Origin: Chlorophyllum brunneum
Lineage: Eukaryota > Basidiomycota > Agaricomycetes > Agaricales > Agaricaceae
Assembly (NCBI GenBank): GCA_963576785.1
Contig: OY756151.1
Coordinates: 1,054,001-1,118,000 of the forward strand
DNA length: 64,000 nucleotides
Reading direction: 5' to 3'
The notes below the pieces were generated by a model. That model did not search any database and was not told the DNA's origin. It saw only the letters and a list, made by a program, of their open reading frames with translations. The position numbers and the translations under genes are program-made. Positions 4,108-55,020 of this stretch are shown one piece after another. Positions within the stretch are counted from its first letter, which is position 1, and each line of letters opens with the position of its first letter.

Positions 4108-5443
4108 TTTTTTTTTTTTTTGAATCATGGCCTAAGGCCAATTTATTATGCGGCACTCGAGCACAGCCCACGGCCGGAGTACAAAAGAGTAATCTAGCAG
4201 GTATCTACGGAGAAGTGGTGGACATGCCCCACCAAGCAGATGTACCATTGCCCGAAACCAATAGTAGACAGAATTGCATCCTACTCCTGAGCCCGAAGGG
4301 CAGAGGGAGTGGACGCCAGAGGAGGCAAGTGGGCAGGGAGGTCCCCCAACCAGCGACCCAGTCCAAAGACCAGGCCTGGTCAGTAAGTGTTAATTCACCG
4401 CAAATGCCCAGTATGGAAACCCCCAGTTACTGGTCCTGCTACTAGCCCCCGGAGTTCATCTTACTAGGTGCCATCCCCCCAGCCATGGTCACCCTTGCCA
4501 AAGTAATAGGCCGCACCATTTGTGTGGCTATTGGCATCTTCACCACACCTAGCCCATCTACGGAGCCCCTTGAGGGGTTTCTTACCACCAGCCTTAGCCA
4601 ATGGCGATATGGAATCAACTTGAGCTGGAACCTGGCTATTTTTCTTGTACCAGGCCAACCAATGTAGGATTTAGTCCTCTCGAGCCAGGTGAGCATTCTC
4701 TGATAACCGGTGGCTTTTTTCAGTATGCCCTAGTACATCACCTGCTACGGCCCACAACTTCACCCAGGTGCTACCCCGGAGTTGCTTCCCATTCCTCAGC
4801 AGCCAGTTTGGTATGCCTTACAGCCTGGATCTCCGTGTTTAACTGTTTGAGATCTACATCTTGCAGACACCACTACCAGATTGGTCCTGAGGTTATTTTA
4901 AGCCAACTTAGTCAGTATCCTCAATCTGGAGATTGGGTTATATCTACTAACTACCAGAACTATGCCGAAGTGGACCGGGAGGAGTATCCTATCTTGGCAG
5001 CTTTTTTCAGCATGCCCCAAGTCGGACTGTTATTACGACATTCCCCTTCTTATAATGCCCTATCTCCAGCAGTGGCTTAGGTAATCCTCCCAAGTTAGGC
5101 CCCAGCATTAGGGCACCACCGCCTTTGGCCAATATTGGACTTGGGCGATGCACACAGCTGGGTCACACCGTGACAGTGTGATGTCACTATGTGACTTGCT
5201 ATGTGGCTGGGTGTGACAACTCCCATGCTAGCCTGTGACAGCACCAAATAATGCCAAATAGGACCACACAACCTAATCCGGTGTCACCCAGAAATATTGC
5301 TAAGCAACCACGCTTCGCGCACTGGTACTTCCCACGGTTGAGAATAAATCCCCCCCCACAGGTTTCGAACCCAGGACCTTCTAGCCAAGTAGCCTGGTAG
5401 GAATTAAGCCTACACCCAAACCACTTGACCATTAGGCCGAACC
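4108..5443 (-). mobile_element. Chimera 1: head 1 fused to LINE-A 3' UTR
   Basis: Minus-strand composite element of about 1.33 kb. Its 5' part (5440 to 4553) is the 888 bp head 1 and its 3' part (4552 to 4108) is LINE-A 3' UTR with the GGCCTTAGGCC palindrome and a tail seen as poly(T) at about 4108-4121. The insertion splits LINE-B and is flanked by gaggccttttc at 4094-4104 and 5444-5454. Head and tail lie within one pair of duplications, so they moved as one RNA-derived unit. It has no coding capacity, so it would depend on a LINE protein, presumably LINE-A, whose 3' end it carries (inference). Confidence 0.85.
4553..5440 (-). repeat. Head 1 module, copy 1
   Basis: Complete 888 bp head. The tRNA-like start lies at 5440-5350, with the B box ggttcgaaac seen in reverse complement near 5358. 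The 3' hairpin CCCCTCAAGGGG is near 4568-4579 and the boundary with LINE-A is at 4553/4552. Confidence 0.85.
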
Positions 5444-6066
5444 GAGGCCTTTTCCACTACCTGGGACTGCCTGGGAATCCCATGCAGTGGACATCATAAT
5501 CACTTGATGTTCTAAACCCTGGTGGAACCAGGAGTGTCATGAGACCTTTGGTAGATATTGTGAGACCTGCTCTCACAATGATTACTCTATTTTCAGATGT
5601 GCCAAGAGGTGTGCTAAATACAACTTCGTTGATACTCACATCAAGGAGATTGCTTCTTCTAACAAGTAACTGTGGGACCTGATGGAATGGGTCCAGAAGC
5701 AGAAGCTCCCACCCTGCAAGGCTATCCAGTACAATGGAGAGCTATGTCACGTGCTCCCAGATCTCTGGGATACACTCCATAATACCTACAATTTAGCCTC
5801 TGGCTGAGCTGTAAATATTTCTGTTCTTGATCTGTTGCTGAGCCTTCTAGCTTGGGAGTGGGTCCATTTCTCAGCCTTAGAGCTGATGGATGCCCTGAGC
5901 ACCTGCTCAGGAGTGTCCACCCCAGGGCCAGACCACATAATGTGGACCCACCTCAAAGAGATCACCGAGGACCCCAATGTCCTTCAGCTATTCATTAGGA
6001 TAGCTAATGCCTGCATGCATATAGGTTATTGGCCATCCTACTTCAAGGAAAGCTTGTTGGTTATCA

Positions 6067-6513
6067 TTTTTTTTTTTTTTTTTTTGAATTGTGGCCTAAG
6101 GCCAATTTATTACATAGTGCTCGAACACAGCCCATGGCCAGGATACAAAAGAGTAAACTAGTGGGTATCTACAGAGAAAGAGTAGCTACACCCTACCAAG
6201 CAAAAGTACTGTTGCCCAAGACCAACAGTAGGAGGAATTGTGTCCTACTCCTGAGCCTGGAGGGCAAGGGGGATGCCAGAAGAGGCAAGTGGGTAGGGAG
6301 GTCCCCCAACCAGTGATCCAGTCTGAAGACCAGGCCTGGTCAGTAGGTGTTAATTTACTGTAAATGCCCTGTGGTGGTGACACCCAGATACTAGCCCAGC
6401 TACTAAGCACCCAATAACCTCTTACTTGGACCCAGCCCCCCGGCCACAGTCGCCCTTGCCAGAGCAATTGGCTGCACCATTTGAGTGGCTATCGGTGTCT
6501 TCACCACTTCTAG
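6067..6513 (-). mobile_element. LINE-A 3' UTR-only fragment
   Basis: Minus-strand LINE-A 3' UTR of about 445 bp with its tail seen as poly(T) at about 6068-6084 and its 5' limit at ctag (6510-6513). It interrupts LINE-B sequence on the left. On the right it abuts the plus-strand head 1 copy, so its own target duplication cannot be recognised. Confidence 0.75.
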
Positions 6514-6515
6514 TG

Positions 6516-6600
6516 TTGGCCTAATGGTCGAGTGGTTTGGGTGTAGGCTTAATTCCTACCAGGCTGCTTGGCTAGAAGGTCCTGGGTTCGAAACCTGTGG
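6516..6600 (+). promoter_or_regulatory. tRNA-like 5' domain of head 1 with A-box and B-box motifs
   Basis: The first ~85 bases of head 1 resemble a class II tRNA. An A-box-like segment atggtcgagtggttt is followed by a perfect 5-bp stem GTAGG/CCTAC enclosing the 7-base loop CTTAATT, which would give the anticodon TAA (Leu). A variable-arm-like stretch and the B box GGGTTCGAAACC come next. Such boxes form an internal RNA polymerase III promoter in tRNA-derived SINEs. The T-stem is imperfect and no acceptor stem is formed, so this is a derived tRNA-like region rather than a tRNA gene. The Leu assignment is inference. Confidence 0.65.
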
Positions 6601-6999
6601 GGGGGGATTTATTCTCAACCATGGGAAGTACCAGTGCGCGAAGCGTGGTTGCTTAGCAATATTTCTGGGTGACACCGGATTAGGTTGTGTGGTCCTATTT
6701 GGCATTATTTGGTGCTGTCACAGGCTAGCATGGGAGTTGTCACACCCAGCCACATAGCAAGTCACATAGTGACATCACACTGTCACGGTGTGACCCAGCT
6801 GTGTGCATCGCCCAAGTCCAATATTGGCCAAAGGTGGTGGTGTCCTAATACTGGGGCCTAACTTGGGAGGATTACCTAAGCCACTGCTGGAGATAGGGCA
6901 TTATAAGAAGGGGAATGTTGTGATAACAGTCTAACTCGGGGCATGCTGAAAAAAGCTGCCAAGATAGGATACCCCTCCTGGTCTGCTTTGGCATAGTTT
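6516..6999 (+). repeat. Head 1 module, copy 3, 5' part
   Basis: First 484 bp of head 1, up to the insertion point of chimera 2. It contains the tRNA-like domain, a central region with inverted CATAGCAAGTCACATAGTGAC-like and tgtcacggtgtga motifs, and the first gcatgctgaaaaaagctgcc motif (6941-6960). The sense strand has no run of four or more T. Confidence 0.85.
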
Positions 7000-7306
7000 T
7001 TTTTTATTTATTTATTTTTATTTTAATCAACATGTTTAAGATGGTGCGCGATCACAGTCCACCTGTATCTACTATGACATGTACATACAATAGAGGGTAC
7101 ACGAAGATAGGCTCTCCCCTGGCCAAACTAGACCGCCGACAGGTGGTCTGAGTGAATAGTCGTGGAAACACGCATGAATGTATGAATCCTAGACCAGATA
7201 TGCAAAGCAATCCCTAGCCTCCCCTCCCTAGGGAGAGTATGCATCAATTCACAATTAACTCCTATACACATTAGAGACGTGGGGAGCTAGCAGGGGTTGC
7301 GCTGCA

Positions 7307-10300
7307 TTATCCAACTCCCGCAAGTGGTGTGTTGGCCTTAAATGCAAATGCAGAAGGATTACACTTAAGAAAAGATACCAGCTGGTCAACAGAGACCGGC
7401 AGGCCACAACGTCTCTTGTACAGTGGACAAGAGCACAAGATATGAGTGTGGGTCTCCAGAGGAGCCCCACACTCGCAGGCAACAGGCTCAAGAGGATGGA
7501 ACTGGGAGCGATACTCACCGGTCGGTGCGTGCCCGAGAATGGCATGGTTTGCCCTCATCGCAACAGACAGAGAGGGAAAGGAAGGAAGCCAAGAATGCCC
7601 ATGGAGGTATGTTGGCTGTAGCAGTTTGTTTTTACTGTCCTTGAGAGCAAGGAAGTTAGAACCGCGATAAGAGGAGTCCTGGAAAGTGACTTTCCAGGCC
7701 TTCTGAACAGTTGCTACACTGAGTTTGCACAGCAAATCAATAGACATTGCTGGATGGCGTCCAGCAGCAACTCGTAGATCGGTGGCAAATACATGCACAC
7801 CGTGATGAATGGACCATTTCGCCAATGCCGGAATGGACCAGAAAGTGAGGGAGTGGTCAGGATGATCCCTGAACCACTCCAACAAGAGACGGCACACAGC
7901 CAGGGAATGTCCCTGGCCAGAATGTACGGACGGGTCAAGAGCTCGCTTGGCCGAACCAATTGAGTCCATAAGGACCGCGATATGTACCATCTCAGAGACT
8001 GCCACAGCAGTTCCCAAAGCCATACAAATGGCAAAAAGTTCAGTATCCGGGGCTGTAACCTTGCCAGCTGGATGACATGTTGCACGAAGCAAATGTGTCC
8101 CCCTATAAACATGGGCAGCAGAAACTGCCTGGAAGTCCCCAACCAGTGGCAGACTTGCATCCATCACTGCATAGACAACCTGTCTATCCTCACGATACTT
8201 ACGAAGGGTATCGTTGAGCAAATCCACCTGACGACCCGCGGGGTTTCCACTGAGCAAGGCATCATATGTTTTGTAAGTCACCTGAGCTGCGTAGCGGTCC
8301 AGGAGACAAGAACCTGGCAATGCTTCGAGCGCAAACGGCTCGAACATCTCCGTTAAGTCTGGCAAATGAGAGTTTGCCTCTGTGACTGGCCCCTTGACTC
8401 TGACCACCTGAGCGGGGGTCATGAGAGCGATCGATCTGGGGTGTGGAGCACATCCCCCAATGTACTGATGCCCTATAATGGAGCGAACAGGGTGATTCTC
8501 GGAAAGTGTGGCAACCCTGTGGACGGCATGAGTAGCCAGCTTCTTGAGATGAAGATGGACGGGGATGAGGCCAGCCAAGGCCTCAGCTCCTCCAGTAGGG
8601 CTGGTGTGGAACGCACCAGTGATCCACAATGCAGCCTTTCACTGCATAGTGTTAAGTTGTTTCAGAAGGGCCTTGTTGCGGGCACCTTCATAAAACTAGA
8701 GTCGAAACCCATACGTAGCGATGGGCACTACACATGAGCAGTAAAGAGTCCTCTTCTGAACAGGAAGAAGGCCTTGCGAAGAGTTACCAAGCATGCCCAT
8801 GGCCTTGACCGTGGACAGAGACTTGGTAGCATAATGTCAAACATGCTCTTTGAAGGTAAGAGCGCAATCGAAAAAGAAACCTAAGTACCTCCAATGGGTC
8901 TTAGGGCGAAGTGGAGTATCGCCGGTATGGGGAGCATACCCCAGATCCAACAGTGGGTTGTCATTTCCCCGTTTACGGGAGAAATGAAACACTTCAGACT
9001 TGTTGTGCTCGATGGCAAGCCCAAACGAAGTAGTCAGGCGATAAATAATCTGGTACGCCTGCTTGAGGCACACCAAATTAGGTTCCCAAGTTTTAGCTTG
9101 GGCAATGGCAAGGCCATCGTCGACATATGAGAGCAAGGTACTCCCAAGGGCAGTTGCCTCCCTATCATAAAGCTTCATGAAGGGGGCAAGATAGAGGCCG
9201 GAAAGGACAGGAGAGAGTGAAGAGCCCTGACCGACCCCAACGTCCGCCTGTCTGAGATCAGACTTATGGTCTCCCCACGCATACTGCGTAGAGCAGCCAA
9301 CTAAGTAAGAGGCAAAGAATCTCCCCATACAGGGGTCAAATCCTTGCTTCCGCAGAATAGCCAACAACATATTGTGGTTGAGCAAAGGAAAGAACTGAGC
9401 GATGTCAAAAGCGACAACACTAGTTTTGAGGCCCTTGGCCCACCCTGTGCAAACGATGTGGGTTAGGAGCATCCCAGCATCATCAGTGGACCTCTGACAG
9501 ATACCACCGAGCTGATTTGGATGAAAAACTCCATGTTTGACAGAGTCAAACTAGAGGCAATTCAAGATCATTTTCTCGATGAGTTTACCAAAGGTGTTCA
9601 GGAGCATGATGGGCCTGAACGCCTTGGGCGTTGAATAGGATGGCTTGCCCGACTTCGGTATGATAACTGACAAGCTTTCCTTGAAATGGGATGGCCAATG
9701 ACCCACATGCATGCAGGCATTAGCTATTCCAATGAATAGCCAAAGAATATCGGGGTCTTCGGTGATCTCTTTGAGGTGGGTCCACATTACGTGGTCTGGC
9801 CCTGGGGCGGACACACCTGAGCATGCACTGAGGGCGTCCATCAGCTCTAAGGCTGAAAAATGGACCCACTCCCTAGCCAGAAGGCTTGGCAGTGGATCAA
9901 GAATGTAAATATCCACAGCTCGGCCAGAAGCAGAGTTGTAGGTATTGTGGAGTGCGTCCCAGAGATCCAGGAGTGCATGACATGGCTCTCCATTGTACTG
10001 GATAGCCTCGCAGGGTAGAAGCTTCCGCTTTTGGACCTATTCCATAAGGTCCCACAGTTGCTTGTTAGTAGAAGCAATCTCCTCAATGCAAGCATCAAAG
10101 AAGTTGCATTTAGCGTGCTTCTTAGCACACCTAAAATTAGAGTAGTCATCATAAGAACGAGTCTCACAATATCTCCTGAAGGTTTTGTGGCATTCCTGGT
10201 TCCACCAGGATTTAGAGCGGCAAGTGATCATGATGTCCACTGCATGGGCTTCCCATGCAGTGGAAAAGGCCTCTGCCATGGCATGGACCACAGCTTCAAC

Positions 10301-11179
10301 CTCATCAGTAGTAGTAGGTTCCGGAAGTTTAGCTACTTCCCGGAGGTCCTGGATAACATCAGTGAGGAAGAGCGCTACCTCCTCACCACTATCATGTGGC
10401 AGGGTTCTCCTGTGAGTCTCCACTAACATGGGAGTGACTGGAAGCATCAAGACCAGTGGAATGTGGTCCGACGGACCCCTAAGGGAGTAATCCAACCTAG
10501 GCCTATGGGAGATAGACAGGTCTGATGGAACAAATGACAGATCAATGACCAAAGGTCGAAGATCCTCATTGTGTGGAATATAAGTAGGCCCAGGCTCGAC
10601 TGGAAGGGCAAGGTCTAGACCAATGTCTGTCCCGATGGAGATCAGAGACTGCAAATTACCTGAGTGGGAGCCATAATTAGGGTCCCACAACTCAGAATGG
10701 CAATTAAAATCGCCGCCCATGTAGATATGCTTGGGCAAAGTAGCAGCCCGGTCTGAAAGGAACCGAATCGCAGTGTGCTCCGAATCGGAGTAGACGTTCA
10801 TGAGATTCAGGGTCTTGCCCCCCAAAAAGAGGGAGAGAACCATGATGTCATGGTGATTGATGAGATCTGTCTGATAGGACAGTCTCAGAGAAGCCAACCA
10901 GTTATGGACAAATGTCATAACCCGTGGGTCAGAGCCAGGCTCCGGGGCCCAAACCATGCACAGCCACTCGGGGTGCTTGGGGGTGCCAACAATGTCGTTT
11001 CCCTTGACAGAAGTTGTGGAGGGAGCGGATCTAATGAACCACCAGGGAGGTTCCTGAATAAAGAGAACATCAAAGTGATCTTTGAGGTCCTCAAGTAATG
11101 TGTCCAATAAATCATAATTTTTGTTAAGATTCTGTTGGTACAATTGGATGCTATGTAGTTCTAGAGGTCACCTATTCAT
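7307..11179 (-). pseudogene. LINE-B ORF2 (endonuclease-RT-RNase H), degraded
   Basis: Full-span LINE-B ORF2, 3873 bases, the same length as the intact copy at 25973-29845, so there is no net length change. The start ATG at 11179 overlaps the ORF1 stop (ATGAATAG). The third codon after it is a stop: ATG AAT AGG TGA, where a sister copy has CGA. A 368-codon block (10037-11143) covers the endonuclease with FIQEPPW, GGDFNCH and GPSDH. RT blocks with FDIAQFFPLL and YVDD follow at 8837-9472. The block 7307-8629 encodes RNase H and the C-terminal CECGAP...HILCSCPLY motif. Nonsense codons and small frame changes separate the blocks. Confidence 0.85.
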
Positions 11180-12093
11180 TGGCAAGCTGTAGAGTACGAG
11201 GGTTGGTGAGGGGAGATCACTGTCGAAGACGGTTGTTACTCACCTCACGATAGAATTTCTTGATTTTCTTGGGTTCAAACCAAGCATCAAAGAATTTACA
11301 CTTCTTCGAGGTTGTATGGTGGGGACCTCGGCAGTTGAGACAATGCGGCGTATGAGGACAAGGCTCATCTGCCAGTGTAGGAGGGATGGGGGGCTGCACG
11401 CTGGAGTTACCCTTGCAGCACCCACAGAGAGTCCAGTGATGTTCCTCATGATGAGGACTACCACAGGTTGGGCATTTCAAGGCCTGCGCCTTGCAGAATT
11501 GAATGGGGTGGCCCCAGTAGAAGCAACGCTTGCACAGAGACACCCCCGGAGAGGCTGCAGATGGCCTGATAGGACAGGCATATCCACCGATATGGAGTGA
11601 CTTCCTGAGGAGGAGGTTCGCCCACTGACCCTTCTGAGAGTCATGAATATTGAAGTACACCGTGGCGGTATCAGATACCTCGGAGTTCCTCGAAATACAG
11701 GAGGTCCCATTAACGTGAAGAGATCAGAAAACGCTGTGTGCTTCATGATCTGTTCAATCTTGAAAGAGGACCAGCAAGTCTCGCCGATCCTGAAGTAGGG
11801 GACGTCGATGACCTTGAGATAGGACTTTGACTGGGGGAGGCCAACTGTAAACACAGTTCCCTGAGGGACAGCCTTTGAAATCCATATCTTGGCGATCTCC
11901 AGGTCGGCAGGAGTGGGGACGGCATTGGTACGCAGAGCAAAACCCCCATACTCGGCAGAGGTAGACTCTACTTGGATATGAAGGCATGAGTCCATGAAAC
12001 CATGGTTAACCATGGTCTCGAGGTGGAAAGAGAAGACTTCGGGGGTAGCCTCGAAGTCAACGATTAACTGGTGCTGTGAGGGGCCAGCGGTGG
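11172..12093 (-). pseudogene. LINE-B ORF1, 5' truncated at the head junction, frameshifted
   Basis: C-terminal half of the LINE-B ORF1 protein. It contains the region with FTVGLPQSKSYLKVIDVPYF and, downstream, three Cys/His knuckles, the first being CKRCFYWGHPIQFC (CX2CX4HX4C), expected to bind RNA in the ribonucleoprotein. A one-base loss near 11690-11705 shifts the frame between the central region and the knuckles. The 5' end is replaced by head 1 at 12093/12094; the head supplies about 35 open codons in frame (MAWYRKNSQ...) that run into ORF1. Stop TAG at 11172-11174 overlaps the ORF2 start. Confidence 0.8.
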
Positions 12094-12981
12094 CCCGTCT
12101 ATGGAGCCCCTTCAGGGGTCTCTTACCACCAGCCTTAGCCAATGGCAACGTGGAATCAACTTGAGCTGGAACCTGGCTATTTTTCCTGTACCAGGCCAAC
12201 CAATGTAGAATTTAGTCCTCTCGAGCCAGGTGAGCATTCTCTGATAACCGGCAGCTTTTTTCAGCACGCCCCGGTACATCACCTGCTACGGCCCACAACT
12301 TCACCCAGGTGCTACCCCGGAGTTGCTTCCCGTTCCTCAGCAGCTGGTTCAGTATGCCTTATAGCCCGGATCCCCATGCTTAACTGTCTGAGATCTACAC
12401 CTTGCAGACACCGCTACCAGATTGGTCCTGAGGTTATTTTAAGCCAACTTAGTCAGCATCCTCAATCTGGAGATTGGGTTATGTCTACTAACTACCGGAA
12501 CTATGCCGAAGTGGACCAGGAGGGGTATCCTATCTCAGTAGCTTTTTTCAGCACGCCTCAAGTCAGACTATTATCACAACATTCCCCTTCTTATAATGCC
12601 CTATCTCCAGCAGTAGCTTAGGTAATCCTCCCAAGTTAGGCCCCAGCATTAGGGCACCACCGCCTTTGGCCAATATTGGACTTGGGCGATGCACACAGCT
12701 GGGTCACACCGTGACAGTGTGATGTCACTATGTGACTTGCTATGTGGCTGGGTGTGACAACTCCCACGCTAGCCTATGACAGCACCAAATAATGCCAAAC
12801 AGGACCACATAACCTAATCTGGTGTCACCTGGGAATATTGCTAAGCAACCACACCTCATGTACTGGTACTTCCCACAGTTGAGAATAAATCCCCCCCCAC
12901 AGGTTTCGAACCCAGAACCTTCTAGCCAAGCAGCCTGGTAGGAATTAAACCTATACCCAAACCACCCGACCATTAGGCCAA
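12094..12981 (-). repeat. Head 1 module, copy 2
   Basis: Complete 888 bp head, 5' end at 12981 and 3' boundary at 12094 (ctccatagacggg on the minus strand). The B box ggttcgaaac is preserved. Its length equals that of copy 1 to the base, supporting a defined RNA with fixed ends. Confidence 0.85.
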
Positions 12982-12983
12982 CC

Positions 12984-13403
12984 TACTTTAGCATAGTTTC
13001 GGTAGTTAGTAGACATAACCCAATCTCCAGATTGAGGATGCTGACTAAGTTGGCTTAAAATAACCTCAGGACCAATCTGGTAGCGGTGTCTGCAAGGTGT
13101 AGATCTCAGACAGTTAAGCACGGAGATCCGGGCTGTAAGGCATACCAAACCAGCTGCTGAGGAATGGGAAGCAACTCCGGGATAGTGCCTGGGTGAAGTT
13201 GTGGGCCATAGCAGGTGATGTACCGGGGCGTGCTGAAAAAAGCTGCCAGTTATCAGAGAATGCTCACCTGGCTTGAGAGGACTAAATCCTACATTGGTTG
13301 GCCTGGTACAGGAAAAATAGCCAGGTTCCAGCTCAAGTTGATTCCACGTTGCCATTGGCTAAGGCTGGTAGTAAAAGACCCCTCAAGGGGCTCCATAGAT
13401 GGG
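12984..13403 (+). repeat. Head 1 module, copy 3, 3' part
   Basis: Continuation of the head split by chimera 2. It holds the second copy of the internal motif, gcgtgctgaaaaaagctgcc (13228-13247), the conserved core shared with head 2, and the terminal CCCCTCAAGGGG hairpin (13379-13390). The head ends at 13403. Confidence 0.85.
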
Positions 13404-14335
13404 ATGCCAAGGGTGCCCCCCCGCACCCCCTCTCCATCTCCCTCCTATCTGACCATCTCATCAGGCAAGTCAAAGGTTCTCTTATGGAAGCCGTCTCCGT
13501 GCTCCCATCCCTCACTGAACAGTTTGACCCCTGCTCTGCAGTGGCTCAACCTGGTCACCGTCTCCTGGACCACTTTGCAGCCCAAGTTTCCTTCCATAAC
13601 TCTCCTCATTCACGTGATGAGAGGGCTGTGCATATAAGGCATCTGAATAGCACTTTGGAACATGCTAATGCCAATCCTCAGGTTCTCACTGTGGCCATGG
13701 ATGCCAGTCTACCACTGTGGGGGGAATTCCAGGCAGTTTCCGCTGCCCATATATACTGGTCAGGCCAGCATGTCTTCCAGACAAGACATGCGGCAGGTTG
13801 AGTGACAGCTCCTGATGCTGAGCTGTATGCTATCCGGATCGCAATAGGAAAGGCCACCAGCCTTCCTGATTGTGACTCCATTGTTTTGTTCACTGACTCC
13901 CTTGGCTTGGCCAAGAGAGCAGTGGACCCCTCCATTCACTCGGGTCAGGCTCATTTGCTTGCCATGTGCAACGCTCTCATGGAGTGGTTCAAGGGTCACC
14001 CCAAATGCTCCATTCACATCTGGCACACCTACTCTTCGGAGAAGTGGGCCGTTCATGGTACCGTACATCAGTACTGTACTGAGCTACAGGTTGCTGCGGG
14101 CTCCTGTCCATGAACCTCCCTTGACTCCCTTCGTCAGAAGATTGTCAAATCCTGCCAGGATGCCTGGATCACTCGATTCCAGGATCCTACTTACTTGGGT
14201 AGCCAATTTATGACTTTCGAAGGACGTAACGGTAAGCCCCTCCAGCCCACTTACCTCCATGGAGGTTCGTGGCTGCCTTCCACTGCAGCGGAGTCTAACT
14301 CGCTGTCTGCCCGCATGTGTAGAGTTATTCTCAAC
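13404..14335 (+). pseudogene. LINE-A RNase H region, 5' and 3' truncated
   Basis: LINE-A ORF2 from DAKGAPPHPLSISLL through the RNase H motifs MDASLPL, DAELYAI and LFTDSLG to the region before the C-terminal Cys/His motif. A stop lies at 13799-13801 (TGAGTGACA; a sister copy reads CGAGTGACA) and another near 14111. The frame is open across the head/LINE junction. The copy stops at CRVILNH where the repeat at 14336 begins. Confidence 0.8.
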
Positions 14336-14752
14336 CATCGCTCCTTGACTTGTTACCACCACCACCACTTTTTCCACTTTCTTTCCCCATTGTACTATTC
14401 GTCTCCTGGGCTCTCTCTCATGGGCCTGGGTCTTTTCTGAGCCTTTGCTGGCTGTAGGGGGGTGGTCTGTGTGGCAACGTTACTTGGTCAATGGGCGGCA
14501 TGCCCTTGGTAAAGGCAATTAAAGGTGGGTATATCCCCACTGTTCATCTGACTGACGCCTATACGCACAGATCGACAGGGCGGCCCCTTGGTAAGGGGCC
14601 TTAAAGGCTGGAGTACTGGCCACCTTGCTCGCTTGCGCTCGCTGGGTTGCCAGTGGTGGCAGCCCTTCTATCAATCCAATGGAGTTGCAGTCCCGTACAG
14701 GGTTTGCATGGTGGTTTTAACCCCTGCTGCAGCTCAAGTCTGGCTAGCGTTT
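14336..14752 (+). repeat. Repeat X, left arm, with LINE-like 5' terminus
   Basis: About 415 bp, also present in reverse orientation at 19240-19640. It begins catcgctccttgacttg, close to the 5' end of LINE-B (cgcatcgcttcttgatttg), so X may be the 5' UTR of a third LINE-like element (inference). Inside are two imperfect direct copies of a unit containing CCCTTGGTAA...TTAAAGG (about 14502-14524 and 14584-14607). It ends at ctggctagcg, where the tail of the LINE-A copy starts. No coding potential seen. Confidence 0.65.
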
Positions 14753-17700: not shown

Positions 17701-18673
17701 AGGCAGGCGTTGGCCAAACGCAGGAACACCATCAAGCAATCTTCATCGATGACAATGTACTTCAGATGGGACCACGTAACATGGTCCGGACCTGGAGAGG
17801 ACATATTAGAACAAGAGGACAGAGCCTCCTTGAGTTCCAACGCCGAGAAGGGGGCCCACTCCCGGACTGGAAGGTCGGGGAGGGGGTCGAGGACAGACGC
17901 ATCACACCGCCGATCAGCAGCGGAGTTGTACGTTGAGTGGAGGGCATCCCAGAGAGAGTCCATAGTATGACAAGGCCGTCTGTTAAACTGGATAGCCTCG
18001 CAGGGAGGTAACTTGCGTGCCTTGACCCATTCCATAAGGTCCCATGGCCGCTTGTTAGTGGAAGCGATTTCCTCAATCTTAGAGTCGAAGAATCGGCACT
18101 TGGCAGCTGCACGAGCTCACCTAAAGTCCCCCCAGTCACCCCGACTACGAGAGTCCTGGTACCTGGAGAAGGAAGTAGCACATGCCTTGTCCCACCAGGG
18201 ACGAGTGCGGCACGTAATCCGGATCTCCTTCAAGTGGTGTGTCCACGCGTTGGAGAAGGCATCAGCCACGGCCGAAGCCAAGGCATCCACTTGATCCGGG
18301 GATTCTGGAGAGGGATGACCAAGAAGATCAGTCACCTCATCGATGATGTGTCCCAAAAAGGCCTCCTCTTCGTCAGAGCCCCTCGGTAGGACAGACTTGA
18401 CAACCCCGACATCAACGGGGGTGATGGGAAGGGAGACAGTCAGTGGAACATGATCCGAAGTACCCTGCAGAGATATGTCCCGATAAGGAAAGGTCCTTGA
18501 TGCATCGGGAGATGAGACAAACACCAGATCGATCACCAATGGGCGAAGATCTGGGTTGTGGGAAATAAATGTCGGACCCGGGTTGGTTGGCATAACCAAA
18601 TTGAGGCCCAGGTCGCAGCTCATTTCCATGAGCCTATGAGCTGTCGTTCGAGGATGCAGAACCTCAGGGTCCC
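14753..18673 (-). mobile_element. LINE-A copy, 5' truncated in the endonuclease, joined to head 2
   Basis: Minus-strand LINE-A from gggaccctgagg in the endonuclease region (18673) to its tail, seen as poly(T) at about 14750-14771. The 3' UTR occupies roughly 14772-15302 and carries the terminal palindrome. Upstream at 18674 the sequence changes to the head 2 module. Flanking duplications could not be established because inverted copies of repeat X lie on both sides. Confidence 0.8.
15303..18673 (-). pseudogene. LINE-A ORF2, nearly intact (RT and RNase H open, endonuclease partial)
   Basis: A single open block of 910 codons (15303-18035) carries RT and RNase H. Visible motifs are KPGKPSYSTPKVFRPI, the palm FDIAQFFPSL, GVGQGSAMSPVLSGLY, the catalytic YVDD (about 17106-17117), RNase H ATDASLPL, DAELYAI and FTDSLG, and the C-terminal CPCGAPFESRVHILTNC. 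Upstream (18120-18673) the end of the endonuclease is open, with VIDLVF and GTSDHVPL. The two parts are separated by one TGA after DFR (18117-18119); another LINE-A copy has CGA there. The first ~165 codons are missing. This is the best preserved LINE-A catalytic region in the window. Confidence 0.85.
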
Positions 18674-19239
18674 GCTACGGTCCACTAGTTGGGCAGGCAG
18701 AGGCCACAAAGGCGTACCTCCAAGGCGCGACCCCTGGACTAGCTTCCCGTTCCCCCGCAGCCGCTTTCGCTATGCCCTACCCTCAGAGGAGGCGACTTGT
18801 CTTTGGGCGCGGATCCACGTGCTAATACTGGCGGGGATCTCCGTCTCGCAGGGGGCACTACCAGGGTGGTGTTCACATTGGATCACATAAGCAACCCGCG
18901 GAACGGGTTACTAAGCAATCCACGGGACGAGCGCCAATCAACCCGAGTTTCCCCGTGTCAATCCGCACCCGCCCAGTGTCCTGGAGTTTGGCGTATCCCT
19001 ACTAACGACCAGGCACTACCCCCAGAGGGGTTTCCGAAGGCATGGCGACACTGGTGGGGGGTGGCCTGTCCTTTCGGTCGGCTTGTTTTCACCTCCATAC
19101 CCCCTATTACCGTCCCTTATCCTTTCAGTCCCTTTTGGGTGCGACGGGGCGGCTTTTTTCAGCATGCTCCCCACCGACGTGCAAGCACGATTAGGGGTAG
19201 GCCCGGACGTCCGTCGTCAGCCAGGATAACCCAGCCTCG
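18674..19239 (-). other. Head 2 module fused to LINE-A
   Basis: GC-rich noncoding sequence directly 5' of the LINE-A part on the same strand. It shares an ordered series of blocks with head 1: gcatgctgaaaaaagccgcc (19148-19167 on the minus strand), gttagtaggga near 19000, ctggtagtgcc and gatcc near 18815-18870, and aacgggaagc near 18745. It ends at accgtagcggg. I read it as a diverged relative of head 1. Whether repeat X' (19240-19640) belongs to the same module is unclear. Confidence 0.6.
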
Positions 19240-19640
19240 AGATGCTAGCCGGACTTGAGCTGCAGCAGGGGTTAAAACCGCCATGCAAACCCTATATGGG
19301 ACTGCAACTCCATTGGATTAATAGAAGGGCCGCCACCACTGGCGACCCAGCGAGTGCAAGCAAGCGAGGTGGCCAGTTACCAAGGGGCTGCCTTGTCAAT
19401 CTGTGCGTATAGGCGTCAGTCAGATGAACGGTGGGGATATACCCACCTTTAATCGCCTTTACCAAGGGCGCGCCGGCACGCCCATCGACCAAGTAACGTT
19501 GCCACACGGACCGCCCCCCTACAGCCAGCGAAGGCTCAGAAAAGACCCAGGCCCATGAGAGAGAGCCCAGGAGATGAAAGGTGCGATGGGGAAAGGAAGT
19601 GGAAAAAGTGATGGTGGTGGTAACAAGTCAAGGAGCGATG
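19240..19640 (-). repeat. Repeat X, right arm (inverted)
   Basis: Reverse-complement copy of 14336-14752, about nine bases in ten identical by eye, with a deletion of about 24 bases in the second internal repeat unit. Its 5' end (cgatg at 19636-19640) abuts LINE-B sequence of the opposite strand. Many differences between the arms are C/T or G/A changes. No coding potential seen. Confidence 0.7.
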
Positions 19641-25297: not shown

Positions 25298-25667
25298 CCC
25301 GTCTACGGAGCCCCTTGAGGGGTCTCTTACCACCAGCCTTAGCCAATGGCAACGTGGAATCAACTTGAGCTGGAACCTGGCTATTTTTCCTGTACCAGGC
25401 CAACAAATGTAGGATTTAGTCCTCTCGAGCCAGGTGAGCATTCTCTGATAACCAGCGGCTTTTTTCAGCATGCCCTGGTACATCACCTGCTACGGCCCAC
25501 AACTTCACCCAGGCGCTACCCCGGAGTTGCTTCCTGTTCCTCAGCAGCCGGTTTGGTATGCCTTACGGCCTGGATCCCCGTGCTTAACTGTCTGAGATCT
25601 ACACCTTGCAGACACCACTACCAGATTGGTCCTGAGGTTATTTTAAGCCAACTTAGTCAGCATCCTC
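25298..25667 (-). repeat. Head 1 module, copy 4, 3' part
   Basis: Last 370 bp of head 1 on the minus strand, including the hairpin and the boundary ctccgtagacggg at 25298. Its outer edge, acttagtcagcatcctc (25651-25667), is the target duplicated by the LINE-B insertion. Confidence 0.85.
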
Positions 25668-25972
25668 TTTTTTTTTTCATTTTTTTTAAATCATCATGTT
25701 TAAGGTGGTGCTCGACCGCAGTCCACCTGTATCTACTGTGACATGTAGGCTACAATGTGAAGGTATACGAAGATAGGCTCTCCCCTGGCCGAACTAGACC
25801 GCCGACAGGCGGTCTGGGTGAACGGTCGCGGAAACACGCACGGACGTGTGAGTCCTAGACCAGATATGTAGAGCGACCCCTCGCCTCCCCTCCCTAAGGA
25901 GAGTATGCGTCAATTCGCAATTAACTTCTACACACATCAGAGACGTGAGAAGCTAGCAGGGGTCGCGCTGCG

Positions 25973-31584: not shown

Positions 31585-31601
31585 ACTTAGTCAGCATCCT
31601 C

Positions 31602-32118
31602 AATCTGGAGATTGGGTTATGTCTACTAACTACCGGAACTATGCCAAAGCGGACCAGGAGGGGTATCCTATCTCGGTGGCTTTTTTCAGCACGCCCCGAG
31701 TCGGACTGTTATCACGACATTCCCCTTCTTATAATGCCCTATCTCCAGCAGTGGCTTAGGTAATCCTCCCAAGTTAGGCCCCGGCATTAGGGCACCACTA
31801 CCTTTGGCCAATATTGGACTTGGGCAATGCACACAGCTGGGTCACACCATGACAGTATAATGTCACTATGTGACTTGCTATGTGGCTGGGTGTGACAACT
31901 CCCATACTAGTCTGTGACAGTACCAAACAATGCCAAACAGGACCACACAACCTAATCCAGTGTCACCCGGGAATATTGCTAAGCAACCACGCCTCGCACA
32001 CTGGTACTTCCCACGGTTGAGAATAAATCCCCCCCACAGGTTTCGAACCCAGGACCTTCTAGCCAAGCAGCCTGGTAAGAATTAAGCCTACACCCAAACC
32101 ACTTGACCATTAGGCCGA
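31602..32118 (-). repeat. Head 1 module, copy 4, 5' part
   Basis: First 517 bp of head 1 on the minus strand. It includes the tRNA-like domain (B box ggttcgaaac complement near 32038-32049) and the first ctgaaaaaagc motif near 31680-31692. It joins the other half across the LINE-B insertion. Confidence 0.85.
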
Positions 32119-34025: not shown

Positions 34026-37000
34026 ATGTCTAGGAACAACCTGGACCATCTGGAGGGCATTAGGGTATTTTTGTTTAACGTCACTAAATCTTATGTCTAC
34101 GTTGACACTCTGCTCGAGAAGTTGAAAGATGACTTTGACATTCTCTTTTTCCAAGAACCTCCGTGGAGGTTTATCCGCACCGCTCCCTCAACCACTGACG
34201 TGGAAGGGGATGACGTTACTGGCGCACCTAAGCACCCTGACTGGCTCATGGTGGTGCATCCCCCTACCCAGGGGTCCCTGCCCCGAGTGATAGCGTATGT
34301 ACACACTTGGCTGCAATGTCTAAGGCCATCAATGAGGAGGGACCTCGTGGATCACCCTGACATCTTGGCGCTGACACTCTTCACTGATGCGAAGGCCCTT
34401 AATTTCCTGAACGTCTACTCAGATGATCAGCATACCGCCATCAACTTCCTTCATGGGAGGGTTGATGCTCTTCCTCCATTCAACTTTATGAGTGGGGACT
34501 TTAACTGTCATTCTTCGGAGTGGGACCCTGAGGTTCTGCATCATCGAACGACAGCTCATAGACTCATGGAAATGAGTTGCAATCTTGGCCTCGATTTGGT
34601 TATGTCAACCAACCCGGGTCCGACATTTATTTCCCACAACCCAGATCTCCGCCCATCGGTGATCGATCTGGTGTTCGTCTCATCTCCCAATGCATCAAGG
34701 ACTTTTCCTTATTGGGATACATTTCTGCAGGGCACTTCGGATCACATTCCACTGACCATCACCCTTCCTATCACCCCTGTTGACATTGGGGTTGTCAAGT
34801 CCGTCCTGCCGAAGGGCTCCGATGAAGAAGAGGCCTTTCTGGGACATGTCATTGATGAGGTGACTGATCTTTCTGGTTGTCCCTCTCCGGAATCCCCAGA
34901 TCAAGTGGATGCCCTGGCCTCAGCCATGGCGGAAGCCTTCTCCAACACGTGGACCCTCCACTCAAAGGAGATCCAGATTACTAGCCGCACTCGTCCCTGG
35001 TGGGACAAGGCATGCTCTACCTCCTTCTCCAGGTACCAAGACTCTTGTAGTCATGGTGACTGGGGGGACTTTAGGTGAGCTCGTACAGCCGCCAAACGAC
35101 GGTTCTTTGATTCTAAAATTGAGGAAATTGCTTCCACTAACAAGCGGCCATGGGACCTTATGGAATGGGTTAAGGCTCGCAAGTTACCTCCCTGCGAGGC
35201 TATCCAGTATAATGGACGGCCTTGTCATGGCATGGACTCCCTCTGGGATGCCCTCCACTCAACGTACAACTCCGCTGCTGATCGGCGGTGTGATACGTCT
35301 GTTCTTGACCTCCTCCCGGACCTTCCAGTCCGGGAGTGGGCCTCTTTCTCAGCGCTGGAACTCAAGGAGGCCCTGTCCTCCTGTTCTAATATGTCCTCTC
35401 CGGGTCCGGACTATGTTACGTGGTCCCACCTTAAGTACATCGTCATTGATGAAGATTGTCTGACGGTGTTCCTGCCCTTGGCCAACGCCTGCCTCATGGT
35501 GGGGCATTGGCCACGCAGTTTTAAGGAATTGCTCTTGGTCATCATTCCAAAACTGGGGAAGTCTTCCTACTGTACTCCCAAGGCATTCAGGCCAATTGTC
35601 CTCCTGAACATGCTTGGTAAGCTGGTTGAGAAAATGATTTCCAACCACATCCAGTTTGATGCCATTAAACATGACATCTTTCATCCCCATCAACTTGGAG
35701 GCATTTGCCAGCGGTCCACTGAGGACGCCGGGTTGTTCCTTATCCACCTGGTTTGTGCTGGGTGGGCTAAAGGTCTCAAGACAAGTGTGGTCACCTTTGA
35801 CATTGCTCAGTTCTTTCCCTCTCTGAACTATAAGATGCTCATGGCCATTCTTGCCAAGCAGGGGTTCCCACTTAATGTGCGAACCTTTTTTGCTTCATAC
35901 CTGGTAGGCCGTTCCACTGTTTACACATGGAACGGCTTCTCCTCTGATCCCCGGGGCGCAGATGTGGGCATCGGACAGGGCTCTGCCATGTCCCCCGTCC
36001 TCTCTGGCCTCTATATTGCATCTCTCATGAAGGTTTTCGACTTGCGGATCACTTCCCCTGGGAGTACTCTGCTGTCGTACGTCGATGACGGTACCGTCGT
36101 TGCCCAGGCTAAGACCTGGGACGAGAACTTGGATACCCTCAAGGGGGCGTACATTGTTCTCTTCAATCTTTTCATAGCGTTCGCACTTGTCATGGAGCAT
36201 GACAAGTCCGAGCTCTTCCACTTCTCCAGAAAGCCTGGAAATGTCAATCCCCCCCTTGACTTGGGCTTCGGCCCATTCACAGGGGACAGCCCCCTTCACC
36301 CTAAGACCTATTGGAGGTACCTGGGCTTCTACTTTGATTGTGCCCTGAATTTTCAGGAGCATGTTCGACATTATTCTACCAAGGCCCTCTCCACCGTGAA
36401 AGCAATGGGGATGCTGGGTAACTCCTCCCATGGTCTGACCCCCAAGCAGAAGCGGCTCCTCTTCAGGTCATGTGTCATGCCTATTGCGACGTATGGCTTT
36501 CGTCTGTGGTATTTTGATAAGGCTCAGTGTAAGGGCCTCCTCAAATCCCTGAACACTATGCAACGCAAGGCTGCATTGTGGATCACCGGTGCGTTCCACA
36601 CCTCTCCCTCTGGTGGCACCAAAGCCCTCGCTGGTCTCATCCCCGTCCACCTCCATCTGAAGAAGTTGGCCTCAAGAGCAAACTACTACCTCTCCACCCT
36701 CTCCGATACTCATCCTCTTCGATCCCTCCTCGATCGTCCGAACGCCAAGGGTGCCCCCCCACACCCTCTCTCCATCTTCCTCCTGTCTGACCATCTTGCC
36801 AGACAGGTCAAAGGTTCCCTTATGGAAGCCGTCTCTGTGCTCCCATCTCTTACTGAGCAGTTTGACCCCTGCGCTGCAGTGGCTCAGCCTGGTCACCGTC
36901 TCCTGGACTGCTTTGCAGCCCAGGTCTTCTTCCATGACTCTTCTCACTCTCGCAACAAGAGGGCTGTACATATAAGGCATCTGAATGGCACCTTGGAACA

Positions 37001-37892
37001 TGCCAATGCTGATCCTGGGGTTCTCACTGTGGCCACGGACGCCAGTCTACCGCTGCGGGGGGAATTCCAGGCAGTTTCTGCTGCCCATATCTACCAGTCG
37101 GGCCTGCGTGTCTTCCAGATGAGACATGCGGCGGGTCGGGTGACGGCTCTGGATGCGGAGCTGTACGCTATCTGGATCGCAATTGGAAAGGCCACCGGCC
37201 TTCCTGACTGCGATTCCATTGTCTTGTTCACCGACTCCCTTGGTTCTGCCAAGAGAGCGGTGGACCCCTCCATTCACTCGGGTTAGGCTCATTCACTTGC
37301 CATGTGTAGCGCCCTTATGGAGTGGTTCGAGGGTCACCCCGAACGCTCCATTCACATCTGGCACACCTACTCATCGGAGAAGTGGGCCATTCATGGTACC
37401 ATACACCAGTACTGCACCAAACTTCAGGTTGCTGTGGGTTCCCGTCCGCAAACCTCCCTTGACTCCCTTCATCAGAGGGTTGTCAAATCCTGCCAGGATG
37501 CCTGGATCACTCGATTCCAGGATCCTACTTACTCGGGCAGCCAGTTTATGGCTCTTGAAGGGTGTAACGGTAAGCCCCTCCAGCCCACTTACCTCCATGG
37601 AGGTTCGTGGCTGCCTTCTGCCACAGCAGAGTCCAACTCACTGTCCGCCCACATGTGTAGGGCTATACTCAACCATGCACCTATCGGGGCCTATAGGTCT
37701 CGGTTCTTCCAAGATGAACCATTCTGGTGTCCATGCGGGGCTCCTTTCGAGTCTCGTATGCATATTCTTACCAACTGCAGTCGGTTTGACACCTCTCAGG
37801 GGTACCCTGCCATGCCGGGTGCCCTTGTCAAGTTCTTGAAAGCAAACCCTCAGGCGTTCGCTTTCCCATCCGTTCCTCAGGGAATTGGATAA
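34026..37892 (+). pseudogene. LINE-A ORF2, full length with two nonsense codons
   Basis: ATG at 34026 overlaps the ORF1 stop as ATGTCTAG; the frame runs 1288 codons to TAA at 37890-37892. The endonuclease has E44 in FFQEPPW, MSGDFNCHSSEWD, VIDLVF and GTSDHIPL. RT has FDIAQFFPSL, GIGQGSAMSPVLSGLY and YVDD at residue 685, the same position as in LINE-B. RNase H has ATDASLPL, DAELYAI and LFTDSLG; the C terminus is CPCGAPFESRMHILTNC. Two in-frame stops interrupt it: TGA at 35076-35078 (after DFR; another copy has CGA) and TAG at 37284-37286 (CAG elsewhere). There are no frameshifts, so the copy is young but inactive. Confidence 0.9.
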
Positions 37893-38408
37893 CTGGCTCA
37901 GGGTAGGTGGGTTATTGTCCAGCGCCGGAGAACTCTGTTGGAAGTCCGGTGAAGACTCTCAGGATTCTATGAACGGAGTTGTTCCCTTCGGCGACTAGGT
38001 GTGGTGAAGATGCCAATAGCCACACAAATGGTGCGGCCGATTACTCTGGCAAGAGTGACCGTGGCCGGGGGGATGACTCTCAGTAAGAAGGACTTTGGGG
38101 GCTAGTAGCTAGACTGGTAACTGGGGGTTTCCAGTACCGGGCATTTGCAGTGAACTGACACTTACTGACCAGGCCTGGTCTCCGGACTAGGCTGCTGGTT
38201 GGGGGACCTCCCTGCCCACTTGCCTCCTCTGGTGTCCACTCCCCTCGCCCTCCAGGCTTGGGAGTAGGACGCAATTCCTCCTACCGTTGGTCTTGGGCAA
38301 CGGTACTTATACTTGGTAGGGCGTAGCTACTCTTTCTCCGTAGATACCCGCTAGAGTACTTGTTTGTATTCCGGCCGCGGGCTGTGTTTGAGCGCCACGT
38401 AATAAATC

Positions 38409-38419
38409 GGCCTTAGGCC
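38409..38419 (+). promoter_or_regulatory. LINE-A 3' terminal palindrome GGCCTTAGGCC
   Basis: A perfect 4-bp stem with a 3-base loop located about ten bases before the poly(A) tail. It is kept in every LINE-A 3' end in the window, including the 3' UTR-only insertions and the chimeras. In LINEs with specific 3' ends such hairpins can be the site recognised by the RT; that role here is inference. Confidence 0.55.
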
Positions 38420-38462
38420 ATGATACAAAAAAAAAAAAAAAAAAAAAATTGATCTGTCATTT

Positions 38463-42450: not shown

Positions 42451-42487
<37 letters not shown>

Positions 42488-47834: not shown

Positions 47835-47870
<36 letters not shown>

Positions 47871-52485: not shown

Positions 52486-53497
52486 CATGTCCCCTTATAA
52501 ATGTGGGCAGCTGAAATCACCTGGTAGTCTCCAATCAGTGGCAGACTTGCATCCGTCACTGCATAGACAACCTATCTGTCCTCACAATACTCACAGTATT
52601 ATTGAGCAAATCCACTTGATGACCCACAGGGTTTCCACTGAGTGAGGTGTCATACATTTTGTAAGTCACCTAGGCCACATAGTAGTCTAGGAGACAAGAA
52701 CCTGGGGATGCTTCGAGTGCAAACAGCTCAAATGTCTCTGTTAAGTCTGAAACAAGAGTTTGCCTCTGTGACTGGCCCCTTGACCTTGACTGCCTGAGCG
52801 GGGGTCATGAGGGTAATCAACCTAGGGTGTGGAACACAGCCCACTGTATACTGATACCCCATAACGGAATGAACAGGGTGATCCTCAGAAAGTGTGGCTA
52901 CCCTGTGGATGGCATGGGTAGCCAGTTTCTTGAGATGGAGGTGGATGGAGATGAGGCCAGCTAAGGCTTTAGCTTCTCCAGTAGGGCTAGTGCGGAACAC
53001 ACCAGTAATCCACAATACAGCTTTATGCTACATAGTGTTAAGTTGCTTTGAAAGGGCTTTGTTATGGGCCCCTTCATAAAACCAGAGTCAAAACCCATAT
53101 GTAGTGATAGGTACTACACACGAGCGGTAAAAAGTCCTCTTCTGAGCAGGAAGAAGGCCTTGTGATAAGTTACCAAGCATGCCCATGGTCTTGACCATGG
53201 ACAGTGACTTAGTAGCATAATGTCAAATGTGCTCTTTATAAGTAAGAGCCTGATCAAAGAAAAAACCCAAGTACCTCCAATGGGTCTTAGGGCGTAAAGG
53301 AGTGTCACTGGTATGGGGGGCATATTCCAAATCCAGCAGTGGGTTGTCATCTCCCTGTTTATGGGAGAAATGAAATACTTCAGACTTGTCATGCTCAATG
53401 GCAAGTCCAAATGAGGTGGTCAGGCAATGAATAATCTGGTATGCCTGCTTGAGGCACACCAAATTAGGTTTCCAGGTTTTAGCCTGGGCAATGGCCT
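52486..53497 (-). pseudogene. Old LINE-B fragment (RT end to RNase H), CpG-poor
   Basis: Minus-strand LINE-B from AIAQAKTWKPNLVCLK after the RT catalytic box to the RNase H region. There are many stops, and CpG sites have almost vanished: the block ttcggacttgtcgtgctcg of the intact copy reads ttcagacttgtcatgctca here. At 53497 it joins LINE-A ORF2 sequence of the same strand in an open frame (NSAADW-type LINE-A followed by AIAQAKTW of LINE-B). Confidence 0.75.
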
Positions 53498-53836
53498 GCC
53501 AATCAGCAGCAGAGCTGTATGTTAAGTGGAGGGTATTCCAAAGGGAGTCCATACTGTGATAAGGCCATCTATTAAACTAGATAGCTTTACAGGGGGGTAA
53601 CTTGGAAGCCCTAACCCACTCCATTAGGTTCCAAGGTCACTTGTTAGTGGAAGTGATCTCTTCAATCTTGGAATTGAAGAATTGACATTTGGCTGCTGTA
53701 TGAGCGTGCCTGAAGTCTCCCCAGTTACCATGACTCCAAGAGTCTTGGTACCTAGAGAAAGAGGTGGTACATGCCTCATCCCACCAAGGACAAGTACAGT
53801 GAGTGATCTGGATCTCTTTTGAGTAGTAGGTCCATA

Positions 53837-55020
53837 TTGGCCTAATAGTCAAGTGGTTTGGATGTAAGCTTAATTCTTACCAGACTGCTTGGCTAAGAGG
53901 TTCTGGGTTTGAAATCTGTGGGAGGGATTTATTCTCAACTATGGGAAGTACTAGTGCACAAGGCATGGTTGCTTAGCAATATTCCTGGATGACACTGGAT
54001 TAGGTTGTGTGGTCCTGTTTGGAATTATTTGGTGCTATCACAGGCTAGTGTGGGAGTTGTCACACCTAGCCATATAGCAAGTCACATAGTGATGTCACAC
54101 TGTCATGGTGTGACCCAGCTGTGTGCATTACCCAAGTCCAATATTGGCCAAAGGTAATGGTGCCCTAATGCCAAGGCCTAACTTGGGAGAATTACCTAAG
54201 CCACTGCTGGAGATAGGGCATTATAAGAAGGGGAATGTTATGATAATAGTCCAACTCGGAGTATGCTGAAAAAAGCTACCAAGATAGAATACCCCTTCCA
54301 GTCCACTTTGGCATAGTTCTGGTAGTTAGTAGACATAACCCAATCTCCAGATTGAGGATGCTGACTAAGTTGGCTTAAAATAACCTCAGGACCAATCTGG
54401 TAGTGGTATCTGCAAGGTGTAGATCTCAGATAGTTAAGTATGGGGATCTGGGCTATAAGGTATACTGAACTGGCTGCTGAGGAATGGAAAGCAACTCTAG
54501 AGTAGTACCTGGGTAAAGTTGTGGGCCATAGCAGGTGATGTACTGGGACATGCTAAAAAAAGCTGCTGGTTATCAGAGAATGCTCACTTGGCTCAAGAGG
54601 ACTAAATCCTACACTAGTTGGCCTGATACAGGAAAAATAGCCAGGTTCCAGCTCAAGTTGATTCCACATCACCATTGGCTAAGACTGGTGGTAAAAGACC
54701 CCTCAAGGGGCTCTGTAGATAGAATCAACACCTACTGACCAGGCCTAGTCTTTGGACTAGGTTGCTGGTTGGAGGACCTTCCTGCCCACTCACCTTCTCT
54801 GGTATCCACTCCCCTTGCCCTTTGGACTCAGAAGTAGGATGCAATTCTGTCTACTGTTGGTTTCAGGAAATAGTACATTTGCTTGGTGGAGTATGTCCAC
54901 CACTTCTCTATAAATACCTGCTAGTTTATGCTCCTGTATTCTGGCCACAGGCTGTGTTTGAGCATTGTATAATAAATTGGCCTTAGACCATGATTCAAAA
55001 TAAAAAATAAAAAATAAAAA
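53837..55020 (+). mobile_element. Chimera 5: head 1 fused to the LINE-A 3' UTR (CpG-poor)
   Basis: Plus-strand composite element of 1184 bp: head 1 (53837-54722, 886 bp), then LINE-A 3' UTR from aatcaacacctactgacc to a tail of repeated taaaaaa (about 54997-55020). The junction point in the 3' UTR differs from that of chimera 1. The target duplication is agtagtaggtccata (53822-53836) versus agtagtgggttcaca (55021-55035), three mismatches. It is an old copy: CpGs of the young heads are mostly TG or CA here, for instance gtgcgcgaagcgtgg became gtgcacaaggcatgg. Confidence 0.85.

Follow-up and report, generated by a model that had tools for sequence, protein, structure and literature searches.

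The window, as we call the whole stretch of DNA analysed here, is a 64,000-nucleotide segment of the Chlorophyllum brunneum genome (contig OY756151.1, positions 1,054,001 to 1,118,000; C13:1054001-1118000 in our survey). It contains five copies of a repeat, head 1, each continued at its 3' end by part of a long interspersed nuclear element (LINE) from one of two families, LINE-A and LINE-B (Table 1). A preliminary description of the window had reported five such copies, and BLAST with the 888-bp head placed all five where it had put them, two of them split by later insertions. The two pieces of copy 4 overlap by 17 bp in the BLAST alignment, apparently the target duplication left by the LINE-B insertion. 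The base after the head lies in the LINE-A 3' untranslated region (UTR) for copies 1 and 5 (reference positions 5877 and 6036), in open reading frame 1 (ORF1) of LINE-B for copy 2 (1162), and in LINE-A ORF2 for copies 3 (4624, downstream of the reverse transcriptase [RT] domain) and 4 (3014, upstream of RT). These regions agree with the preliminary description, except that it had set the copy 3 junction "before RNase H," a domain for which we found no support: EN and RT are the only Pfam domains in the scanned LINE ORFs.

Table 1. Head 1 copies, their LINE partners, and related features of the window
Feature	Position in window	Strand	Evidence or remark
Head 1, copy 1 (888 bp)	4553..5440	-	BLAST; 3' end GCTCCGTAGATGGG at 4553
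tRNA-Leu(TAA)-like 5' unit, first 91 nt of copy 1	5350..5440	-	ARAGORN on L001 (= copy 1)
LINE-A 3' UTR piece joined to copy 1, poly-A end, target-site duplication (TSD)	4108..4552	-	LINE alignment; cross-locus TSD control
Head 1, copy 2	12094..12981 (BLAST span 12094-12979)	-	BLAST
LINE-B, ORF1 to poly-A, joined to copy 2, TSD	7001..12093	-	LINE alignment; cross-locus TSD control
Head 1, copy 3, 5' piece	6516..6999 (BLAST 6518-6998)	+	Split by copy 2 chimera
Head 1, copy 3, 3' piece	12984..13403 (BLAST 12985-13403)	+	BLAST
LINE-A ORF2 part joined to copy 3	13404..14345	+	LINE alignment
Head 1, copy 4, 5' piece	31602..32118 (BLAST 31585-32118)	-	Split by LINE-B
Head 1, copy 4, 3' piece	25298..25667	-	BLAST
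LINE-A ORF2 part joined to copy 4	24859..25297	-	LINE alignment
Head 1, copy 5	53837..54722 (BLAST 53839-54720)	+	BLAST
LINE-A 3' UTR piece joined to copy 5	54723..55018	+	LINE alignment; TSD by eye
LINE-B inserted in copy 4	25668..31584	-	ORF1 29838-31586; ORF2 25973-29851, EN + RT
LINE-A copy serving as reference	32119..38448	+	EN + RT (Pfam)
Head 2 copy, 5' piece (head positions 1-985)	18671..19640	-	Sequence match

Fixed head ends joined to many LINE positions

The genome surveyed comprises 38.9 Mb in 14 contigs. Protein comparisons point to a mushroom near the Agaricaceae: the closest named LINE proteins are those of Agaricales (Cyclocybe, Candolleomyces, and Psilocybe among others), and a CCT-eta frame shares 94% identity with Agaricus bisporus var. 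burnettii, with 82% of the query covered. Head 1 has 43 matches in it, 39 of them nearly full length, and 40 candidates were scored. Through the pattern of the 3' end we found a second head, 1433 bp long and fixed at both its 5' and its 3' end, which has 41 matches (40 candidates scored). Head 2 falls into subfamilies 2a and 2b, whose differences are scattered, the clear ones lying near the 3' end. Heads 1 and 2 have in common blocks of 93 nt at 76% and 61 nt at 77% identity, along with 18 identical nt at the 3' end. The common 19-nt 3'-end pattern, AAGGGRCTCYRTNNNYRGG, has 132 exact matches in the genome, and the reversed pattern has none. Among the matches listed (100 of the 132), the NNN of the pattern reads AGA (once AAA) in head 1, ACG, ACA, or ATG in head 2a, and GTA or ATA in head 2b; a lone TCA match (L150), lying outside the clusters, was not recognised as a head.

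From these loci we read 137 junctions, comprising 71 of head 1, 36 of head 2a, and 30 of head 2b. When heads 1 and 2 were pooled and compared with LINE-A and LINE-B, the last head base was a G (..YRGGG) in 68 of 71 junctions. The LINE side varies: 106 of 118 junctions could be placed in LINE-A or LINE-B, at many positions, and head 1 joins LINE-A anywhere from reference position 152 to 6036 and LINE-B from 1162 to 5960. In 83 of the 129 junctions aligned to these two families, LINE similarity starts immediately after the head, and in 108 it does so within the first 4 bases. The constant 3' boundary with varying LINE points, described beforehand for the window, thus extends to 71 head 1 junctions genome-wide, and the copies do not share a single LINE junction. 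In the 137 junctions, a few of which are too short to classify, we recognised no independent head insertion with another 3' end.

For eleven head 1 junctions no LINE-A or LINE-B match lay close to the join, and we searched these against LINE proteins; four of them (L074, L076, L079, and L090) offer only about 140 nt after the join. A LINE protein match in the reading direction was obtained for 6 of the 11. The ORF2 ends at L002, L013, and L129 (the same place as L025) are 31 to 35% identical to the nearest LINE proteins, those at L014 and L079 show 54 to 55% identity, and the match at L076 spans 15 residues only. A match lies on the opposite strand at L028 and starts 493 nt on at L051, while none was found for L046, L074, or L090, the last two with only the short stretch noted above. 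L046 and L051 match the LINE-A 3' UTR from about 25 nt past the join (26 nt for L046). Because the ORF2 ends at L002, L013, and L129 are so distant from the nearest proteins, head 1 is partnered by at least one further LINE family. Both families named in the preliminary description are therefore partners, as it had claimed, but its count of two was too low.

It had also held that duplicated targets enclose head and LINE together. Within the window, the copies at 4553 and 12094 have TSDs that pass a cross-locus control, and the copy at 53837 has a 15-bp repeat with 3 mismatches, judged by eye. Across the genome, among the chimeras in which both head ends could be placed, the 5' flank was readable in 39, and in 14 of them a poly-A tail lies within the retrieved stretch; the other 25, lacking a tail there, were left out. 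As a control we used 182 mismatched flank pairs, each drawn from different copies. TSDs of 14 to 17 bp with 0 to 2 mismatches were present in 12 of the 14 chimeras, each scoring above all 182 controls, while L006 and L019 had no TSD above the controls. Since the TSD encloses both parts, head and LINE enter the genome together as a single insertion, as in the MINE element of Magnaporthe.

Left-out LINE trinucleotides vary with the head

Decay of the head 1 copies is strongly directed at CpG. Among 35 aligned head 1 copies we counted 1411 transitions and 39 transversions, and C-to-T change affects 30% of CpG places versus 1 to 7% in other contexts, as expected for methylation- or repeat-induced point mutation (RIP)-like decay. 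We read the LINE bases left out just upstream of each join (positions -3 to -1) from LINE copies that run through the junction, for 67 head 1, 36 head 2a, and 30 head 2b junctions. After CpG correction, the left-out triplets of head 1 were CGA (28), CGG (14), CGT (10), and CGC (3); those of head 2a were CTC (22) and CTT (6); and those of head 2b were CCT (14), CCA (5), and CCC (3). At copy 2 in the window, for example, the left-out LINE-B bases are TGA, read as a decayed CGA. Each head thus has its own code: CGN for head 1, CTY for 2a, and mostly CCT or CCA for 2b.

The tests of this code used uncorrected majority bases, because CpG correction favours C and G, and counted each LINE site once, because junctions at the same site may be copies of one chimera. 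On that basis, position -2 is G in 42 of 54 distinct head 1 sites, T in 27 of 27 head 2a sites, and C in 16 of 21 head 2b sites. The same dependence is seen when the partner is held constant: with LINE-B alone, the counts are 15 of 18 for G, 21 of 21 for T, and 15 of 20 for C, respectively. Head 1 in turn has G at -2 on both families (CpG-corrected distinct sites, 23 of 26 in LINE-A and 17 of 18 in LINE-B). Pooled over heads, -3 is C in 81 of 102 distinct sites (p = 5e-25), and the first LINE base retained, +1, is G in only 1 of 102 (p = 1.6e-11). As background we used 58 headless LINE 5' boundaries, some of them genuine truncations and others copies interrupted by later insertions; of these, 10 have C at -3 and 21 have G at +1, and no triplet dominates. 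The dependence of the left-out LINE trinucleotide on the head is the new and surprising part of the system, and none of the papers listed in searches of open-licence PubMed Central reports head-specific join sites in its title or abstract opening.

The heads as RNAs

By ARAGORN, the first 91 nt of head 1 contain a tRNA-Leu(TAA) at 3 of 7 loci and in the CpG-corrected consensus, whereas no tRNA was found at 14 head 2 loci. The 888-nt head 1 consensus, CpG-corrected, is free of TTTT, which is compatible with transcription by RNA polymerase III but could be chance. Judging from the tRNA-Leu-like promoter, head 1 is probably transcribed by this polymerase. A G immediately precedes the first head base in 15 of 16 forward-read head 1 copies (among L001 to L030) and could be either the head's own base or an added one. 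The start of head 2 (about 30 nt) resembles the LINE-B 5' end and may therefore derive from a LINE. Rfam gave no match at the gathering score in the window, nor at E values up to 1 in L001 and L056.

A hairpin of the form UCCG-UNNN-CGGG is possible at the extreme 3' end of all head types. We tested for structure by comparing the 2a and 2b consensus sequences with 2,000 random placements of the same substitutions. With the predicted 2b fold as the basis, head 2a shows 5 compensatory pair changes versus 0.68 expected (P = 0.001) and 20 broken pairs versus 23.5 expected (P = 0.21). With the 2a fold as the basis, which has fewer confident pairs, 7 broken pairs were found versus 13.1 expected (P = 0.033). 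A head RNA structure is thus supported by these predictions, though unequally by the two tests, and the heads can be modelled as a small family of structured noncoding RNAs of three types, 1, 2a, and 2b.

How heads may come to be joined to LINE RNA

LINE chimeras are usually ascribed to chance RT jumps. The more than 100 natural joints read here indicate that the LINE site depends on the RNA being added, and because the code differs by head, which blind template switching does not predict, the join would seem to be guided rather than accidental. The informative bases are absent from the product and must therefore be read on the LINE RNA; pairing between cDNA and head cannot account for them. 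Since the code follows the head and not the LINE, the head RNA, alone or with protein, appears to take part in site choice, and we favour a site choice guided by it, whether within the RT complex or on RNA.

The explanation we prefer, with a probability of roughly 55%, is that head RNAs are joined at their exact 3' end to LINE RNA at a head-guided site and that both are then inserted together by the target-primed reverse transcription (TPRT) of the LINE. A head RNA with an exact 3' end (..UCCG-UNNN-CGGG) would be joined to the 3' part of a LINE RNA, and the LINE bases upstream of the join (C-X-N, where X is G for head 1, T for 2a, and C for 2b) would be read before or at the join. The reader would differ between heads and would most simply be the head RNA itself. 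By the most likely route, the head would mark or cut the LINE RNA behind C-X-N, and the GGG at the 3' end of the head would be connected at that point, either chemically (splicing-like or cut-and-ligate) or by an RT jump at that cut or stop, and TPRT would insert the joined molecule as a unit. A bolder version, which we consider speculative and rather unlikely, is that the heads are mobile catalytic or guide RNAs that recognise the three-base site C-X-N in LINE RNA and link their 3' end to it by a reverse-splicing-like trans reaction in a eukaryotic nucleus before riding the LINE machinery, different heads (perhaps including the WEIRD module of MINE) having different codes. The first step of group I and II intron reverse splicing offers an analogy, in that the intron 3' end is joined to the downstream target and upstream bases are recognised; unlike those introns, the heads have no Rfam match, and we found no guide in them.

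Several observations weigh against head-guided joining. There is no homologous three-base switch between heads 2a and 2b: a three-base Watson-Crick guide at a homologous place was rejected for want of a GAG-to-AGG switch, and the only fitting places are GGG triplets, able to pair with either code, and a single GGG-to-AGG place. For longer pairing between LINE flanks and heads, z stayed within the 95% null maximum apart from one 2b window that slightly passed it (4.07 versus 4.04), which among 15 tests we take as chance. No known ribozyme family in Rfam matches the heads (window; L001 and L056). The 2a fold taken as the basis yields 1 compensatory change versus 0.47 expected (P = 0.37). The code has exceptions, with another base at -2 in 12 of 54 head 1 and 5 of 21 head 2b distinct sites (uncorrected), and the avoidance of G at +1 could partly be a register effect of the head's own GGG. 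Finally, some same-site copies may be re-moved chimeras rather than hot spots, since head pairs sharing a site are slightly closer than others (5 pairs versus 373, P = 0.0018), with copies differing almost only by transitions.

Other candidate readings of the sites and ends were set aside. An H/ACA-type 3' end (ANA plus 3 nt) does not fit a loop that varies between heads (AGA, AYG, RTA), much of the variation being CpG decay. Ribosome-linked cutting at the codons CGN, CTY, and CCN would show a reading-frame preference, of which none is clear, and sites also lie in the 3' UTR. An RT pause motif set by the LINE family is contradicted by the LINE-B table, where the code changes with the head. Identity as a group I or II intron is not supported, no conserved catalytic core having been matched in Rfam (window at gathering score; L001 and L056 at E up to 1).

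By architecture, the head-LINE chimeras are a MINE-like chimeric retroelement system. As in MINE (WEIRD-MGL; PMC2104539), a full-length noncoding 5' module with fixed ends precedes a LINE that is 5' truncated at many points, a TSD surrounds both, no solo module was found, and a trinucleotide preference lies just upstream of the join. Unlike in MINE, the heads form two families (three types), of which one has a tRNA-Leu-like 5' unit; the trinucleotide changes with the head; and more than two LINE families take part. The junctions read number 137, versus 31 MINEs (PMC2104539). Our recount of the representative sites in Table 3 of that source gave G-Y-Y before the join in 17 of 18 rows and G after it in 1 of 18 (PMC2104539). 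WEIRD may thus be one more head that has a site code of its own, and the printed GCC preference of MINE may belong to a wider rule.

The preliminary description had proposed a MINE-like system, with template switching as the explanation known for MINE. In ordinary switching of this kind, the LINE RT would stall on LINE RNA during TPRT, switch to the GGG at the 3' end of an abundant head RNA, and copy the head through to its 5' end. Untemplated C added to the cDNA might help, much as it does for template-switch oligonucleotides, and the trinucleotides would be pause sites. This is possible, although we judge it on the unlikely side. The architecture is that of MINE, whose authors explain the GCC*A/U preference by RT pausing (PMC2104539); the heads end in GGG; and TSDs surround the chimeras. 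Pause sites, however, would be expected to go with the RT or the LINE. Within LINE-B the code instead changes with the head, head 1 uses an identical code on LINE-A and LINE-B, and headless LINE boundaries, although a mixed set, lack the motif. The MINE-like reading was thus right but incomplete: the composite of fixed 5' module, 5'-truncated LINE, and shared TSD holds, while plain switching leaves the head-dependent trinucleotide unexplained. The tRNA-Leu-like 5' end, the second head with its two subfamilies, and the presence of more than two LINE families were not foreseen.

If instead a host nuclease cut LINE RNA and an RNA ligase added the head before TPRT, with the head having no role in site choice, the precision of the joints would be accounted for, and one report names RNA ligation among two routes to U6/L1 chimeras (PMC13174262); but one code would be expected for all heads and three are seen, which makes this improbable. 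It is highly improbable that the heads represent 5' UTRs belonging to full-length LINEs, with the chimeras arising from LINE RNAs by internal splicing or deletion. The likeness of the first ~30 nt of head 2 to the LINE-B 5' end is outweighed by three LINE-B 5' ends without a head, by the joining of one head to several LINE families, and by left-out bases (CGN, CTY, CCT/CCA) that lack a splice-acceptor AG end. The headless LINE-B 5' ends lie at 22804 (-) and 51823 (-) in the window and at 2657 (+) in L009.

Head-guided joining, the preferred explanation, can be set beside two further systems. The U6/L1 and related mammalian small nuclear RNA/LINE chimeras also have a full-length small RNA upstream of a truncated sense LINE with a TSD, and template switching or RNA ligation has been proposed for them (PMC4476161, PMC13174262). 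Their 5' part is a host RNA (PMC4476161, PMC13174262), whereas here it is a repeat of 0.9 to 1.4 kb known only from the chimeras and with a head-specific code. Short interspersed nuclear elements (SINEs) derived from tRNA likewise have a tRNA-like 5' unit (here in head 1), insert by LINE machinery, and form families that share inner blocks. Unlike in those SINEs, the 3' part here is a LINE of any length, and no solo head with its own 3' tail was recognised among the junctions read, the few that are too short to classify aside. The system bears on how SINE-like RNAs acquire LINE sequence, and its head-specific code makes the mechanism directly testable.

Among the matches listed, most head copies lie in one LINE-rich stretch each on contigs C1 to C11 and C13; those on C12 are more spread, and strays occur at C6:43 kb, C8:126-141 kb, C9:1.95 Mb, and C1:4.57 Mb. 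The occurrence of one LINE-rich stretch per contig suggests that the head-rich stretches are centromeres. Elsewhere in the window, the ORF at 59646-60476 has no Pfam match, and G+C drops to 37 to 44% between 54000 and 64000.

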